Shown one piece after another: positions 11,599-63,166 of a stretch of 64,000 bases of DNA (position 1 is its first letter; each line of letters opens with the position of its first letter). The translations under genes were made by a program, and so were the position numbers. The notes under the pieces are model-generated. The model saw only the letters and a list, made by a program, of their open reading frames with translations. It had not been told where the DNA came from and made no database searches. Location of the stretch: positions 124,001 through 188,000 of IMG/VR virus record IMGVR_UViG_3300033997_000243; one strand, given 5' to 3'. The DNA comes from a virus.

Positions 11599-12180
11599 TC
11601 AGAAAACAGATTTCGCTTGTTTAGTTTCGTAGGCTTCAACTGTAGAAGCATCTAAAACCAGATCGCACATGGCTAAACTGAATTCCTTTTTGTTGCTTTC
11701 ATCAGGACGACCAGCCATGCTGTACCACATACCACTCCAGCTGCGACCTAATTCATATTTAAAGGTTGTACAATCAGTATTCAAATTTTCCTGATGCACT
11801 CCATATTCATCACGACCTGAATCAATAAGCACTGCCATCTTTGTTACTAATTCGTTGTTGACCGGAATATTGTTTTCCTTCAACCATTGAACAGCTGCTT
11901 GAGAACCGTCAGCACCATAACGCGAAGTATTGCTGGAGGTTAAAAGATCTTTCAGTGCTTGAGTGTCCATGTTTTTCAGACCTTTCAGATCCTGCATTTT
12001 GAGTGTGTACTTACTTAAAGCAGATTGTGCAAGGCGATAAGTTGAACCTATCTTTACCTGAAAATCTGAACCGCGATCTTTGTAGTGAAAGTAGGTTGCA
12101 GCAAATGCAGCTGCAATTAAAAACAACGAACCTAAGATACCGAGAAAAATACCCAGTGCCGAACCTTTTTGCATTTTCAT
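11599..12180 (-). CDS. LemA-like membrane-anchored protein
   Basis: 193 residues: short basic start, one membrane segment (about 8-30), then helices. The order YGADGSQAAVQWLKENN, then SGRDEYGVHQENL, resembles the phage branch of LemA proteins (RYxxxxxxxKxxKExNPxLD, then GRxEFxxxQ). In bacteria LemA-type proteins are often encoded beside TPM-domain membrane proteins, and here the next upstream gene is a cysteine-rich, TPM-like membrane protein overlapping by 4 bp. Likely located in the inner membrane facing the periplasm; molecular role unknown. Confidence 0.65.
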   Translation of the reverse strand: MKMQKGSALGIFLGILGSLFLIAAAFAATYFHYKDRGSDFQVKIGSTYRLAQSALSKYTLKMQDLKGLKNMDTQALKDLLTSSNTSRYGADGSQAAVQWLKENNIPVNNELVTKMAVLIDSGRDEYGVHQENLNTDCTTFKYELGRSWSGMWYSMAGRPDESNKKEFSLAMCDLVLDASTVEAYETKQAKSVF

Positions 12181-13325
12181 AAATTTACTTCCCTCATTTT
12201 ACGTGAAATAAAATAACTGACTAACAAGTTTAAGGATGCCATGATAAATGAAAACCACAGCGGTATCTGAACTTCAGATTTCTTTTTAGCAAAAGTCTCG
12301 GCAGGTAAACGAACAAAAAGTTTATCCACCATTTCTAATTGCGAATCCACTAACTGCGGAGTGAACGGTTTACCGACAGACATGAATTTAAGTTCAGTCA
12401 ATAGTTCCCTGTTGTTCATTCCTTTTGCGTATGTATTTGCGTTGAACCAAAGAATTTCATTACCTTCTTGATTCATGCCCAACATTATTATCAGATCATT
12501 CTTTTTGCCACCCGCCCATTTTGACATAGTGGCATAAAAATAATCAGGACTTTCTTCGGTCAGAACATAAATAATGTTGATTTGTTTCTGGCTGCCTTTA
12601 ACAGTGAGCCAACGACTAACTTTTTCGTTTAGCCAACTGGTTCCAGCTTTGGTTGTATTCAACACGCGATTATAATCAAAGTAGTTGTATACTTCTGGAT
12701 AATTGTGCAGTGTTCCCGCATAGCGCTCTTCCAAACTTTCTGATTTGAAATTTAGACTGTTATCACCTATCAACAGAAAGTTTTCATAACTATTTTCGGC
12801 TGATGCAGGATCACCTACTCGAAGCGAAGCCCAATAAGGTGGGGTATTTAAACCTTGTCTATTGTTTGGGCCACGAGAAATAGTGAAGGTTCCAACTGTG
12901 GTAAATACATCCCAGTCAACATCGTAGTCATGTTCGTAGCACGTTGAACATTTGCGCGTACAACTTTTGCTTCCATCGCTTCGTTTTGTACATACATCAT
13001 GGCAAGGTGGACACGAAAAAGAATGGCTACAACTAACTTCATCACGTTGTTTTCCAACCACACTACCATTTAATATTTCAAAGTCAGAAGAGGCTGTTGT
13101 TAAATAGATAAAGAAAAATATCATACTGAAAGCCGCAACGAACGTATTACCTAGTGCGCTTATACCAAATTCTTTCAGCGTTATTTTCTCAAAGTTGGTA
13201 TGCTCAATTCTAGGTCGTCTATACTTAGGTATATTCGGATCAACTGGTGCGTCTTTATGTCTGAACCAACACACGAAAGTTGTGACAAATCCAAACAAAA
13301 GACAGATAAAAAAGTGCTGCATCAT
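12177..13325 (-). CDS. Cysteine-rich membrane protein, TPM-like core
   Basis: 382 residues. Two N-terminal membrane segments (about 3-20, 52-77) and one near the C-terminus (358-376). After the second comes a dense cluster of seven cysteines (about 100-131: CSHSFSC, CHDVC, CTRKCSTC) ending in CYEHDYDVDW. Later QINIIYVLTEE, AGGKKNDLIIMLGM and a C-terminal helix resemble a TPM-type alpha/beta domain. I recall phage and bacterial membrane proteins with the same order (cysteine cluster, YxDHYxVxW, SYxNY, GGKKNDxxxxIG), often beside LemA-like genes. Function unknown, probably membrane or redox-related. Confidence 0.72.
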   Translation of the reverse strand: MMQHFFICLLFGFVTTFVCWFRHKDAPVDPNIPKYRRPRIEHTNFEKITLKEFGISALGNTFVAAFSMIFFFIYLTTASSDFEILNGSVVGKQRDEVSCSHSFSCPPCHDVCTKRSDGSKSCTRKCSTCYEHDYDVDWDVFTTVGTFTISRGPNNRQGLNTPPYWASLRVGDPASAENSYENFLLIGDNSLNFKSESLEERYAGTLHNYPEVYNYFDYNRVLNTTKAGTSWLNEKVSRWLTVKGSQKQINIIYVLTEESPDYFYATMSKWAGGKKNDLIIMLGMNQEGNEILWFNANTYAKGMNNRELLTELKFMSVGKPFTPQLVDSQLEMVDKLFVRLPAETFAKKKSEVQIPLWFSFIMASLNLLVSYFISRKMREVNL

Positions 13326-28561: not shown

Positions 28562-29536
28562 TCAACAAATTTTAAGTGAAGGCTCTTTTGTATCTACAGC
28601 CACGAATAATTGAAAAACACTATTGAAACCAACAACCATTACTATGCCATTGGCTAAACGCATTTTAAACACAACATCCAATACAGCTGGTGGATCTTCA
28701 CCAATGCTTTTGTTATTTATTTCAAAAGCAGCATCTTTCATAGTTCCGTAAGTTTTTGCACGTTCCTTTAAAAGTTCGGCCACACTGATCATTCCGTAGC
28801 GCAAACTACGATAACGACTTGCGCCATAATAAGCTGGATTCATTTCATCACAAAATTCACCAAAATCTTCTTCTGGCTTGTACAAGGTTGCACCTCGAAC
28901 AAACAAGTTAAGTTCATTCAAGTCCTTTTTGTCCAACATGGCCACATGAGCTGCTGTAATAAAATTTTGAATGCGTAACAGAAAGTTTTGTTGGAATCTG
29001 CTAACCATAAGTTCAAACTTTATTTGATCTTGAGTTTCCAACAATTCGCTTATACGCATGGCACTCACTTGTTCCCAAGTAATTCCAGCTTCATCAAGTA
29101 ACTCTAAACCTGCTTGCACTCTGTAACTGTCAACAAAAATAACGTGGTCAATTTTACCAGTTTTGATGATCGCTTGTGAGCAGTTAATACAAGGCGTACT
29201 CATGACCAACATTACACAACGGCCAAACTTTTCAACAGATTTGTTGCGATGTGATCTGTGTGGTATGTTTGAGAAGTTTGCTTTTTTAATAGCATTTATT
29301 TCACTGTGAATAACTTCAGGCAGTGTAATTCCATCAACTTCAAACACATGATCTGATCCGCTGGCAACTCCATTGCAGCCATCACTTAAAATCTGCCAAA
29401 CTTGACCAGTAGTATGCTGAAGAATAATACTACCCATTTTCTTTCGCGTAACCTTGCTACGCTGTGCCGCAACAAACATATCCAGCACATAAGTTTTCAG
29501 CGTTGGAAATTGTTGTAGATATGAAAGTTTAGTCAC
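28562..29536 (-). CDS. dCMP-deaminase-like protein with long C-terminus
   Basis: 324 residues, GTG start with GGAGAATC upstream. Residues about 20-150 follow the cytidine/deoxycytidylate deaminase pattern: SDGCNGVASG, then zinc ligand and proton shuttle in HSEINAIKKA (H77, E79), PCINC (C116, C119), then GKIDHVIFV and a conserved helix. The Ser replacing Ala in HAE is unusual but seen. dCMP deaminases supply dUMP for dTMP synthesis, useful to a phage. The last 140-170 residues are unlike the known family and may be an extra domain. Confidence 0.85.
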   Translation of the reverse strand: MTKLSYLQQFPTLKTYVLDMFVAAQRSKVTRKKMGSIILQHTTGQVWQILSDGCNGVASGSDHVFEVDGITLPEVIHSEINAIKKANFSNIPHRSHRNKSVEKFGRCVMLVMSTPCINCSQAIIKTGKIDHVIFVDSYRVQAGLELLDEAGITWEQVSAMRISELLETQDQIKFELMVSRFQQNFLLRIQNFITAAHVAMLDKKDLNELNLFVRGATLYKPEEDFGEFCDEMNPAYYGASRYRSLRYGMISVAELLKERAKTYGTMKDAAFEINNKSIGEDPPAVLDVVFKMRLANGIVMVVGFNSVFQLFVAVDTKEPSLKIC

Positions 29537-58933: not shown

Positions 58934-59197
58934 TTACGTTTCCAAATTGAATGTGTCTGAATTCCAAATCACTATTGTTTCCAGTACCTTCGGATCATCC
59001 GTAGAGCCTACAGAGAAACTCGCTCCTTTAGCACAATCAGGTAATTCAGCTGGAACCCAAGAAGCCAATCCGATTTTACGATACTCGCCAGCAGAAATAG
59101 AATCTGGAACAAGTCCAAGCTCTTTAATCTCTTGAGTAGTCATAAACTTTTTAGCATTCTGTTTGATATGATCGAAAGAAATAGAATCAGCTGTCAT
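58934..59197 (-). CDS. Small hypothetical protein
   Basis: 87 residues starting MTADSISFDHIKQ; GTGAGGATAA precedes the ATG at 59197, and the longer frame would overlap the neighbour by 97 bp. Alpha/beta miniprotein, acidic end. No family recognised. Confidence 0.8.
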   Translation of the reverse strand: MTADSISFDHIKQNAKKFMTTQEIKELGLVPDSISAGEYRKIGLASWVPAELPDCAKGASFSVGSTDDPKVLETIVIWNSDTFNLET

Positions 59198-60176
59198 TTT
59201 TATCCTCACAGATGGCATCAAATTTGCCGTAAAAGAAATCGTGATCAATCGTTTTGTTTTGTCTGTTAATAGTTGCAAGAACAAACTTTTCTTTATTCAT
59301 CATTCTAAAAACACGGGTAACTGCGTCATACGAATTACGATTACTTTCTACAATTTTTTGTTTCGACTCTTCTGGCCCTTTGGTTTCATCAAGAACACGG
59401 TGCATAGGATGGGTAACTAAAGTTTCTACACCGTCAATATTTACGAGTCGTACAAAGTTAAATAAACGCTCAAAGACATTTAATTTATCTTCCAGCGTTT
59501 TGTGAAAGGCAATATGAGTTGCCCATTCAGGTATATAATTGTTATCAAACAAATATTGCAGGTCTGGAACAGAGTAAACACCGTAAGCAGATTTCTGTTC
59601 AAATCTAAATGGAGATCTTGTATACTCCAATTCTTTTAAATAAATACGTTCCAGAATGTTAAGGTGAGTGATCTGGAAAAGTCTACTTAAAATTTCGGTC
59701 TGGAACGAAAGATCTTTTTCGTGAGGGAAACCATCGTAACGAAGAATACTACTTAAGCGTTGTTTTCCGTTAGGTGTATCAACTTTCAACCCGTATAAAT
59801 CTTTTATTTCTCGCAACTTTGACCAACCAACGCCGAAATATTTGGTTAGTACATTCAAAATAGGTTTTGGAATAAGAGCTTCTTCTGCTTCATCTTCTTC
59901 CCTTGAAGAGACTAACACATCATGCTGCTCTGCAAAAAAGAATACTTCTAACGGACATTCGTTTATACCGAGTTGTGGATCTTCTTCACGATGCAACCAA
60001 CACAGAGGTCGAATAGAATAGATACCGTAATTTTTTGAAGGTGGTTTTAGTCCAGCACGTAATTCATCAAGTTTGAAAAGTTTAACACCTGCATCAGTTA
60101 AATCATTCAGCATTGAGTATGCGTTTGCCTGATTTTTTATTGCAGCTTGTTCAATACGAAAAATGTTTATATCCAT
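59187..60176 (-). CDS. Hypothetical protein, paralog of the 60.7-kb gene
   Basis: 329 residues, ATG preceded by AAGGAAATA. YSVPDLQYLFDNNYIPEWATHIAF, then FNFVRLVNIDGVETLVTHP, aligns with the 323-residue protein at 60729 (YSVEDITDLIVSQYSLPWATHVGY, then VNLDGEQLMVRHP). Alpha/beta, soluble. The pair flanks the YgiB-like lipoprotein gene. No known activity. Confidence 0.87.
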   Translation of the reverse strand: MDINIFRIEQAAIKNQANAYSMLNDLTDAGVKLFKLDELRAGLKPPSKNYGIYSIRPLCWLHREEDPQLGINECPLEVFFFAEQHDVLVSSREEDEAEEALIPKPILNVLTKYFGVGWSKLREIKDLYGLKVDTPNGKQRLSSILRYDGFPHEKDLSFQTEILSRLFQITHLNILERIYLKELEYTRSPFRFEQKSAYGVYSVPDLQYLFDNNYIPEWATHIAFHKTLEDKLNVFERLFNFVRLVNIDGVETLVTHPMHRVLDETKGPEESKQKIVESNRNSYDAVTRVFRMMNKEKFVLATINRQNKTIDHDFFYGKFDAICEDKNDS

Positions 60177-60220: not shown

Positions 60221-60742
60221 TTATCCGCCGTAACTTCCGCCGCTGTGTTTGTAGGCAGTTGCTCCAAATCCACCACGGTTTACAACTCCAGCAGCGGTGA
60301 CTGGAACAGAACTTGGATAAACTTTTGTGTGTCCAGTTTTGCTTGCTACCAGTTCATTTGTTGCTGTACGAAAGCCAGAAGGATCATCTTTTGAACGATA
60401 CAGCGGCTGGCTTTGTACAAAAGAACTTGCATTCGATGGATTGGTGGCACTTGACATATAGCCTGACATATACGGCATATAAACAAAGCCTCCACTACTT
60501 CCAGCGGTTGCCTCGCAATTTCCTGCGCCAAAATCTTCAGCGCAATCTTCTGGTTTTGTGTAACGAGGTGCAACTTGTTTGTGCAGTGCAGTTGCATCAG
60601 CAAAATCTTTCAAACACTTTTCTTTGTTGTAGTATGCAGCACATTGACCAACATTCTCAGACACTACTGGATAAACTGGTTCTTCACAGCCAGCCAATCC
60701 AGCTGTCATTAACACAAGAACAACTTTACTACTGCGCTTCAT
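60221..60742 (-). CDS. YgiB/DUF1190-like lipoprotein
   Basis: 173 residues starting MKRSSKVVLVLMTAGLAGCEEP; GAGGAATGCT precedes the ATG. The signal ends in LAGC, a lipobox. The order of PRYTKPEDCAEDFGAGNCE, VYMPYMSGYMSS, QPLYRSKDDPSG and RGGFGATAYKHSGGSYGG follows E. coli YgiB (APKYATREDC, WMPLMAGYMM, QPLFSSK, RGGFGESVAKQS). The family is usually outer-membrane or periplasmic and encoded near an amide ligase (YgiC), not seen here. Role in the phage unknown. Confidence 0.82.
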   Translation of the reverse strand: MKRSSKVVLVLMTAGLAGCEEPVYPVVSENVGQCAAYYNKEKCLKDFADATALHKQVAPRYTKPEDCAEDFGAGNCEATAGSSGGFVYMPYMSGYMSSATNPSNASSFVQSQPLYRSKDDPSGFRTATNELVASKTGHTKVYPSSVPVTAAGVVNRGGFGATAYKHSGGSYGG

Positions 60743-61700
60743 AGCATTCCTCGAAAGTTTTGTTGTCATATAAAGGTTTAGCAATGTTTAAAAAGAATTC
60801 ATCCATTGTAACAAACTCATATTCATCTTTACGGAAAAAACGGATTGTACGTAAAGATTCTGTATAAGCAACTTTGTTGTGTTCAATAATTTCATTTGCT
60901 TCTCGCAAATACTCGCCATGAATTTTTGAGTTTTCAGTACAGCCAAGTTTACTAAGGTGCTGTGGCGAAGTATTTAAAAATGGTTTGAATTTTGGAACTG
61001 GATGGCGAACCATTAATTGTTCACCATCTAAATTTACGCAACGGGCAAGAACAAACATACGCTCACGTAAGTTTATTTCGGATTCATCAGATTTCATGTA
61101 ACCAACATGAGTGGCCCAAGGCAAAGAATACTGACTCACAATCAAGTCAGTAATATCCTCAACTGAATACTGACAATAATGTTCGGTACGCACTAATCGA
61201 GTTGGCGGTTCCATTGTACTGGATGGTTTGCGAATGAAAAGACGTTCAAGGAATTGAACACGTTGAGCCTTATTACAGAATTCAAAAAGTTGGTCAGGAT
61301 CTAAAACAGTTGAAAGTCGAACCATGACATCATGTTCAGGATGCAAGAAGTTTCCTAAATAAACAAGAACAGCACTTAGCTTGTTTTCATTGATTAGGCT
61401 GGCTGGAACTTTTTCTTCTTTTAGTGTTTTTAGAGCTTGCTTTGAAATGCCTGTTGTCATTGTTGACGGATCAACAGCATCAATTGTCAGTGCAAAGAAT
61501 ATCTTTTCAGTTTGCAACAACAGTTTATTAACTGAATCAGGAGTCTGTGGAAGTAAAGCACCCAACGAAAAGATTGCATTCGCGTACTGACTGACATTAA
61601 AGTTTTTACGCAAATCTTGTGCGCTAAAAAAATTAACACCAGCTGCTTGTAATATTTCACGAAGCTCTAAAGCGATTTCTGTTTTGGTTTTAATAGTCAT
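60729..61700 (-). CDS. Hypothetical protein, paralog of the 59.2-kb gene
   Basis: 323 residues, ATG preceded by GGAGGCAAC. Diverged duplicate of the 329-residue protein at 59187, matching over about residues 175-260. Helical beginning, alpha/beta middle. It overlaps the YgiB-like gene by 14 bp. Function unknown. Confidence 0.87.
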   Translation of the reverse strand: MTIKTKTEIALELREILQAAGVNFFSAQDLRKNFNVSQYANAIFSLGALLPQTPDSVNKLLLQTEKIFFALTIDAVDPSTMTTGISKQALKTLKEEKVPASLINENKLSAVLVYLGNFLHPEHDVMVRLSTVLDPDQLFEFCNKAQRVQFLERLFIRKPSSTMEPPTRLVRTEHYCQYSVEDITDLIVSQYSLPWATHVGYMKSDESEINLRERMFVLARCVNLDGEQLMVRHPVPKFKPFLNTSPQHLSKLGCTENSKIHGEYLREANEIIEHNKVAYTESLRTIRFFRKDEYEFVTMDEFFLNIAKPLYDNKTFEECYEAQ

Positions 61701-61735
61701 AGTATGTTGCCTCCATTGGCTCTGTATACATAGTC

Positions 61736-61746
61736 TGATTTACAGT
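61736..61746 (-). repeat. Post-stop motif ACTGTAAATCA, copy 4
   Basis: Fourth copy, four bases after the TAA ending the 159-residue gene. Confidence 0.48.
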
Positions 61747-61750
61747 ATCA

Positions 61751-62230
61751 TTAAACTAAAGCGAGTTCTTTTGCTTTGGTGATATTCCAACCAAGTTGTT
61801 CAAAATGCTCGGCCAGTGGAATAACTCCTTTACCTGAGTATAACTGTTTTGGAATTTCTCCACCACGGGAAACCAAGATCTCAAGCCAGTGATTTGGACA
61901 GACGACCGCCATAAATTTCTCCATAGCCAGCACAAGATCATCCGGTGTATTTGGATAATCTTCTTCCGTAAATTGAGGCGTATATATAGCATAGCCTTTA
62001 CCGCTATCTATCTTCTGACTTTCTTGAGTTCTTTTCGGTAATAACAATCGATAGTTTTTGTTATCACACAATTGAATAGATGCAAGTTCAAATATATTAC
62101 TGTAGCTAAATTTACCTTCGCTAACATTCATACTGTATACCAGTACGGAAATTTTTTGAGAGCAAACATCTACAATAATCTTTGGATAGTCATCTTCCTT
62201 GTATGGGTTCTTATCGTACTCAAAGTGCAT
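61751..62230 (-). CDS. Hypothetical protein
   Basis: 159 residues, ATG preceded by AGAGGGAAAG. Beta-rich first half (IIVDVCSQKISVLVYS), then a helical part and GWNITKAKELAL at the end. No family recognised. Lies directly downstream of the sponge-type gene. Confidence 0.84.
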   Translation of the reverse strand: MHFEYDKNPYKEDDYPKIIVDVCSQKISVLVYSMNVSEGKFSYSNIFELASIQLCDNKNYRLLLPKRTQESQKIDSGKGYAIYTPQFTEEDYPNTPDDLVLAMEKFMAVVCPNHWLEILVSRGGEIPKQLYSGKGVIPLAEHFEQLGWNITKAKELALV

Positions 62231-62270: not shown

Positions 62271-62732
62271 TTACTGTTGGTTCGTACCTTCAACACCGCG
62301 CTGTTTGCGATCTTGTGTTCGTGCATCCAACCAATGCAATGCACTTACAATATGTTGCAGCGCTTGTTCATTGGAATTACAAGCGAACGGGCCAGCTTGA
62401 AAACCACGAAGTCGGTGAGCGCATATTACCAAAAGATCTTCCATTTGAATTCCATTGACACCATGTTCGTTGATTGGGCCATTTTGGAAATTAATGGCGG
62501 CAAGACAAATACTTTGTTCACCGTTAAAAGCGCTTACACTGTAAACATGATTTGCATTACCGTGAGTTGGTAAATCGTCAGCAGTTACAATTGTGTACTC
62601 TGTTTTACGAATAGCTAAAACAGCTTGCTTTTGTTCGGCATCGTAATCTTCCATTGCCTGTGTAATCTTTTCAGCAGTAACTTCACCATCTACTGCAATG
62701 AAAATAGTTCCTTTTGTTGGATCATCACTCAT
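62271..62732 (-). CDS. Tad1/Acb2-type nucleotide-signal sponge
   Basis: 153 residues; GAGGTCAGTGA precedes the ATG. Two parts: a beta-rich N-terminus (strands GTIFIAV, YTIVTADDLP, HVYSVSAF) and a C-terminal helical hairpin with FQNGPINEHGVNGIQ, RLRGFQAGPFACNSN, then ALHWLDARTQDRKQRGVEGT. In the Tad1 family (sequesters the TIR-made gcADPR signal of Thoeris defence) and Acb2 (cyclic dinucleotides of CBASS) the hairpin has the same order. Spacings F111-N121-R138-R142 (10/17/4) equal those I remember for Tad1 pocket residues F82/N92/R109/R113. 4-bp overlap with the upstream gene. Ligand unproven. Confidence 0.82.
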   Translation of the reverse strand: MSDDPTKGTIFIAVDGEVTAEKITQAMEDYDAEQKQAVLAIRKTEYTIVTADDLPTHGNANHVYSVSAFNGEQSICLAAINFQNGPINEHGVNGIQMEDLLVICAHRLRGFQAGPFACNSNEQALQHIVSALHWLDARTQDRKQRGVEGTNQQ

Positions 62733-63166
62733 TCACTGACCTCGACTTCTTGCAATTGCTCTAAGGGTTCAAAAGTTGATTTGACTCCCATAAGCTTGCG
62801 TACTTGATCCATTGCCATTTCACCACGAACAGGTGTAACGCTTAAATACAAATAGTTGTATTCAGTGTGATCTGGATCTTCTGGATTTACATACTGAAGA
62901 AGTTCACCAGCTTTCCATTGATAATGATACATGCCAACGACTTTTGTTTCTTCCACTGGATTGCTACTGTTTGAAATAGCATTTACTACACGTTCAAACA
63001 GGTCGGCTGAATAACTGGCCTTTGGGTTGTTCAACCACAAACACTTTTTGTCGAAGTCAACATAAGCCGTGAAATCCGGTAAACTGTGGAGACAGTGAAC
63101 TTCTACAGTCCATCCAGCAGATTCTAAAGTTTCTTTGTGTTGCTCAATAATGCCTGAGTATGACAT
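62729..63166 (-). CDS. Hypothetical protein
   Basis: 145 residues, ATG preceded by AGAAGGAAAA. Alpha/beta with strands WTVEVHCLHSLPDFTAYVDF and KVVGMYHYQW; acidic end (LQEVEVSE). Shares a GW plus strand start (SAGWTVEV) with the GW-module proteins but lacks their IxITL end, so is not placed there. Next to the sponge-type gene. Confidence 0.83.
   Translation of the reverse strand: MSYSGIIEQHKETLESAGWTVEVHCLHSLPDFTAYVDFDKKCLWLNNPKASYSADLFERVVNAISNSSNPVEETKVVGMYHYQWKAGELLQYVNPEDPDHTEYNYLYLSVTPVRGEMAMDQVRKLMGVKSTFEPLEQLQEVEVSE

Follow-up and report, generated by a model that had tools for sequence, protein, structure and literature searches.

Near one end of the window, by which we mean the whole 64,000-nucleotide stretch of DNA analysed here, lies an open reading frame that raises the question of whether a jumbo phage of uncultured origin carries a sponge for the nucleotide signals of the Thoeris and CBASS defences. 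The window corresponds to bases 124001–188000 of a virus record that is 319,518 bases long. For 24 kb of the window, a comparison with 50,697 phage records yielded no near match. A preliminary description of the locus had read the product as a probable sponge of the Tad1/Acb2 type. The frame itself is as it was described there: it is on the minus strand, comprises 153 codons and contains every motif that had been quoted. The gene, which we call tad1, is set within a long series of minus-strand genes, and its ATG start codon forms the overlap ATGA with the stop codon of the gene that precedes it. Its features, and those of a second gene to which we return below, are collected in Table 1.

Table 1. 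Positions of the tad1 gene, its parts and the companion nuclease gene (window numbering unless otherwise given)
Feature	Position	Strand	Basis
Tad1-family protein, 153 aa	62271..62732, stop codon included	(-)	PDB sequence, PHROG, AlphaFold/Foldseek, pN/pS
Probable ribosome-binding site GAGG	62740..62743	(-)	Coding strand reads GAGGTCAGTGAATGAGTGATG; 7 bases 5' of ATG
Predicted N-terminal extension, residues 1 to ~37	62622..62732	(-)	pLDDT 40–59; precedes the best PDB match
Predicted four-strand antiparallel sheet, residues 39–82	62487..62618	(-)	AlphaFold strands
Predicted two-helix hairpin and C-terminal tail, residues 97–153 (F111, N121, R138, R142, RGVEGT)	62274..62444	(-)	AlphaFold; 61 homologues
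Acb1-type anti-CBASS nuclease gene	94291–94758 of the record, outside the window	(+)	PF23474 1.3e-27; PDB 7t26 1.6e-17

Single-sequence searches of the PDB sequences with the 153-residue protein returned CmTad1 (8kbb, E=1.6e-19), CbTad1 (7uav, E=1.3e-13) and gp184 of phage phiKZ (8y6v, E=2.1e-11), the best match beginning at residue 45. Among the PHROGs, phrog_2428, a family without a stated function, is matched from residue 25 (E=1.1e-36). By tblastn at E<=1e-5, homologues were located in 130 phage records, none of them reaching 60% identity; they include the Tad1 of SBSphiJ7 (5e-18, 44.8% identity across residues 58–153) and a protein of the Aeromonas phage AerS_266, and some carry a structural-protein annotation. 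Pfam and NCBIfam name no Tad1 family for the protein, and weak matches in these collections (partial_CstF, 0.027) fell below the cut-off and were disregarded. The 263-residue protein encoded upstream was considered as a paralogue of Tad1, as it has a YSVSxxGE stretch resembling that of Tad1, but it was rejected at a pairwise E of 0.51.

An AlphaFold model of the monomer, built with an alignment of homologues (pTM 0.67), predicts the fold described for Tad1, in which an N-terminal antiparallel sheet of four strands is followed by two long C-terminal helices (PMC12043709). The modelled strands span residues 39–43, 47–51, 63–69 and 74–82 and precede a hairpin whose helices, residues 97–113 and 119–145, have a pLDDT of about 98. 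When the model was compared with the PDB using Foldseek, all 20 matches at E<=0.001 were chains of CbTad1 or CmTad1, with a best E of 6e-10 and TM-scores of 0.71–0.78 by target length; the next match had an E of 0.17. The best match among viral predicted structures is named Acb2/Tad1 hairpin domain-containing protein. The hairpin proposed in the preliminary description is therefore borne out by the structure search. The same description envisaged a beta-rich, Tad1-like N-terminal half of about 80 residues; the sheet at residues 39–82 agrees with this, but residues 1 to about 37 are modelled with low confidence and are not recognisably Tad1-like.

The double name Tad1/Acb2 can be narrowed. Acb2 has in common with Tad1 the idea of a helical hairpin and a site for cyclic trinucleotides, and it has no beta-sheet domain (review PMC12043709). 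An Acb2 would be a short, all-helical protein of some 90 residues, whereas the protein studied here has 153 residues and a sheet domain. No Acb2 structure was matched by sequence in the PDB at E<=1 or by fold at E<=0.001. From the sheet domain and the absence of any Acb2 structure among these matches, we conclude that the protein is Tad1 and not Acb2; sequence and fold uphold the first half of the name and the second is withdrawn. It is a new, diverged member of an established family rather than a new kind of system, being at most about 50% identical to its homologues with the exception of one at 97%.

The residues F82, N92, R109 and R113 of CbTad1, which we take to be those of the pocket for glycocyclic ADP-ribose (gcADPR), had been described as having the same spacing as F111, N121, R138 and R142. 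This proved correct. Alignment with CbTad1 chain 7uav_A pairs the four residues with F83, N93, R110 and R114 at identical spacing; each number is higher by one, which a single additional residue at the head of the chain would explain. The corresponding positions in CmTad1 are 90, 100, 117 and 121. Translating the whole window in all six frames yields the spacing F-x9-N-x16-R-x3-R a single time. F111, R138 and R142 are the same in every one of 61 homologues taken from viral contigs and genomes, and 60 of these have N121 as well; the set likewise retains both loops, FQNGP and GVNG, and the tail RGVEGT. The collection search was made with a narrow alignment of homologues, a set of 15 diverse ones being too divergent for the purpose. 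In the monomer model, the hairpin tip carries F111 and N121, and R138 and R142 lie further along the second helix at a distance of four to five turns, a separation that is expected if the pocket is built by two protomers.

A copy of the gene that is 97% identical is present in the viral contig L005. The two differ at 13 synonymous and 5 nonsynonymous positions, giving a pN/pS of 0.10, and the gene is under purifying selection. With E-values of 1.6e-19 (PDB sequences), 1.1e-36 (PHROG) and 6e-10 (fold) alongside this ratio, chance is excluded and the open reading frame is real. The locus is a mosaic, since the genes just upstream of tad1 are nearly identical in the two contigs and about 519 bases downstream are found only in the window copy. 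Directly downstream of tad1, a gene for a 159-residue protein of no recognised family (61751–62230, minus strand) lies within the bases missing from L005 (region 61701–62213); it is an accessory gene of this mosaic locus and possibly serves counter-defence as well.

The immediate neighbours of tad1 belong to no recognised family in Pfam or the PHROGs, with the exception of a DUF1190 lipoprotein. The gene for the latter (60221–60784, minus strand; PF06693, 1.5e-26) encodes a lipobox, LAGC, and overlaps the start of its neighbour; DUF1190 lipoproteins are known from enterobacteria. It is flanked by two diverged paralogues of no known family, at 60729–61700 and 59187–60176, both on the minus strand, which are 27% identical over 197 residues (E=1e-17). 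Farther away, also on the minus strand, 12177–13325 has a strong match to phrog_2087 (5e-103), a family that is widespread in phages and has no stated function, and 28562–29536 encodes a protein of 324 residues with a cytidine/deoxycytidylate deaminase domain (PF00383, 1.6e-10).

The record also encodes an anti-CBASS nuclease of the Acb1 type. Its match to PF23474 is above the cut-off, and the two HxT/S motifs of the 2H phosphoesterase fold family read HCT and HIS. Acb1 cleaves CBASS cyclic nucleotides; with Acb1 and Tad1 in one genome, the phage probably both cleaves and sequesters nucleotide alarm signals. AerS_266 has the same pair, there side by side and annotated as anti-CBASS and anti-Thoeris. 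Tad2-like PF11195 was not found in the genome, and RyR PF02026 gave no match in either the genome or the control. Only Acb1, Tad1 and two other proteins among those annotated in a 49-kb stretch of AerS_266 match this genome. A phiKZ-like, nucleus-forming phage was considered and rejected: among the annotated proteins of that 49-kb stretch, neither an RNA polymerase nor chimallin found a counterpart here, and the closest relatives of the tail sheath are those of Phage NCTB (46%) and of Erwinia and Dickeya jumbo phages. Elsewhere in the record, outside the window, the product of 106241–107848 (minus strand) has an N-terminus that by eye resembles a GroEL-type chaperonin.

We are highly confident that the gene encodes a Tad1-family sponge, which by analogy with CbTad1 and CmTad1 would be a hexamer that sequesters the signals of Thoeris or CBASS. 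The Tad1 hexamer has six inter-protomer pockets for gcADPR or cyclic dinucleotides, each common to two protomers, and two further sites for cyclic trinucleotides (PMC12043709). Assembled like its homologues from three interlocked dimers, the protein from this phage would bind gcADPR, the signal of the Thoeris TIR protein, and some cyclic dinucleotides in six such shared pockets, and cyclic trinucleotides, which are CBASS signals, at two separate sites, which would lie at the trimer interfaces. The signals would be held without being cleaved, gcADPR being released unaltered. Effectors of the host, for example ThsA, CapV or NucC, would thereby stay off during infection, and in this way the sponge may rescue the phage from Thoeris or CBASS.

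The balance of ligands might be different. Ligand range varies among Tad1 relatives, cyclic di- and trinucleotides are bound as well as gcADPR, and the phage Tad1 of orf184 is described as conferring resistance to CBASS (PMC12043709); as Acb1 is encoded in the same genome, we regard it as possible, if somewhat doubtful, that this sponge is aimed mainly at CBASS cyclic nucleotides and not at gcADPR. However, the gcADPR pocket retains its four residues, and binding of both gcADPR and cyclic trinucleotides is reported to be conserved in the family (PMC12043709).

It is unlikely that the protein is in addition a virion component, packaged by means of its N-terminal extension and injected so as to be active from the first minute of infection. 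Such a role would agree with the validation of its homologue gp184 of phiKZ as an injected protein (PMC10449902), with the long N-terminal extensions of the phiKZ-group homologues and with the structural-protein annotation of some homologues. On the other hand, no similarity was detected between the extension of about 37 residues and those of the phiKZ group, the gp184 injection blot has n=1 according to its own legend (PMC10449902), and the phage, whose reading frames match neither a phiKZ-type RNA polymerase nor the AerS_266 chimallin, is not phiKZ-like.

Unusual architectures are found in other members of the family. In phiKZ gp184 and its relatives (L009:2653–3222, L010:2653–3345 and L011:2689–3300), the Tad1 part is preceded by long, unrelated N-terminal parts, and the report of gp184 as an injected virion protein (PMC10449902) suggests a sponge that is delivered with the genome. 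In gp131 of Burkholderia phage FLC9 (L002:3332–4348), a cyclophilin-type peptidyl-prolyl isomerase (PF00160, 2.5e-44) is fused in one frame to a C-terminal Tad1 domain. A second cyclophilin–Tad1 fusion occurs in a separate uncultured phage (L052:3251–4348, an IMG/VR contig), and a search with the FLC9 fusion's own sequence found no further copies. The cyclophilin domain is possibly a folding or targeting partner of the sponge, and the fusions, taken with the reported injection of gp184, hint at phages in which Tad1 is delivered, or embedded, in an uncommon manner. For the present protein, we can conceive of a Tad1 variant proper to jumbo phages with a T4-type sheath, in which the N-terminal extension does something new: it might load the protein into the virion, to be delivered along with the genome, or shift its range of ligands. 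Such a variant would be paired with Acb1 so that signals are both cleaved and soaked up; we consider this improbable.

The deviation of the hairpin from the family consensus at some surface positions might be taken to mean that the Tad1 fold has decayed or been put to another use here and lacks sponge activity. This is very unlikely, as the gene is under purifying selection and nothing is lost from the pocket residues, from the two loops (FQNGP and GVNG) or from the RGVEGT tail.

Overall, the locus provides a complete, diverged Tad1 from an uncultured jumbo phage that encodes Acb1 elsewhere in its genome, and the co-occurrence lends support to the idea that large phages combine several means of silencing nucleotide alarm signals. 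It is also of use in annotation, as the PHROGs families without a stated function that hold this protein could now be labelled Tad1.

Among the characterised systems, CmTad1 (8kbb, 8kbc and 8kbd) has the same fold as that predicted here (target TM-score 0.76), the same loops, the F/N/R/R set and a tail of the RGxEGT type; it is about 36% identical to the 153-residue protein and differs in lacking the N-terminal extension of about 37 residues. CbTad1, from a Clostridium botulinum prophage (7uav, 7uaw, 8smd, 8kbe and 8kbf), likewise has this fold and the four pocket residues at identical spacing. It is about 34% identical, and the insertion in its FQ-G loop is longer, KGARKEEKSQHG as against NGPINEHG in our protein. 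The likeness to phiKZ gp184 (8y6v) covers the hairpin and tail, residues 75–150, whereas gp184 as a whole has 230 residues, with a long, unrelated N-terminal part, and is reported to be an injected virion protein (PMC10449902). With the Tad1 of Bacillus phage SBSphiJ7, the founding anti-Thoeris member, all of the conserved motifs are held in common, although that protein comes from a phage of the Herelleviridae and has a different N-terminus and a longer beta-strand loop.
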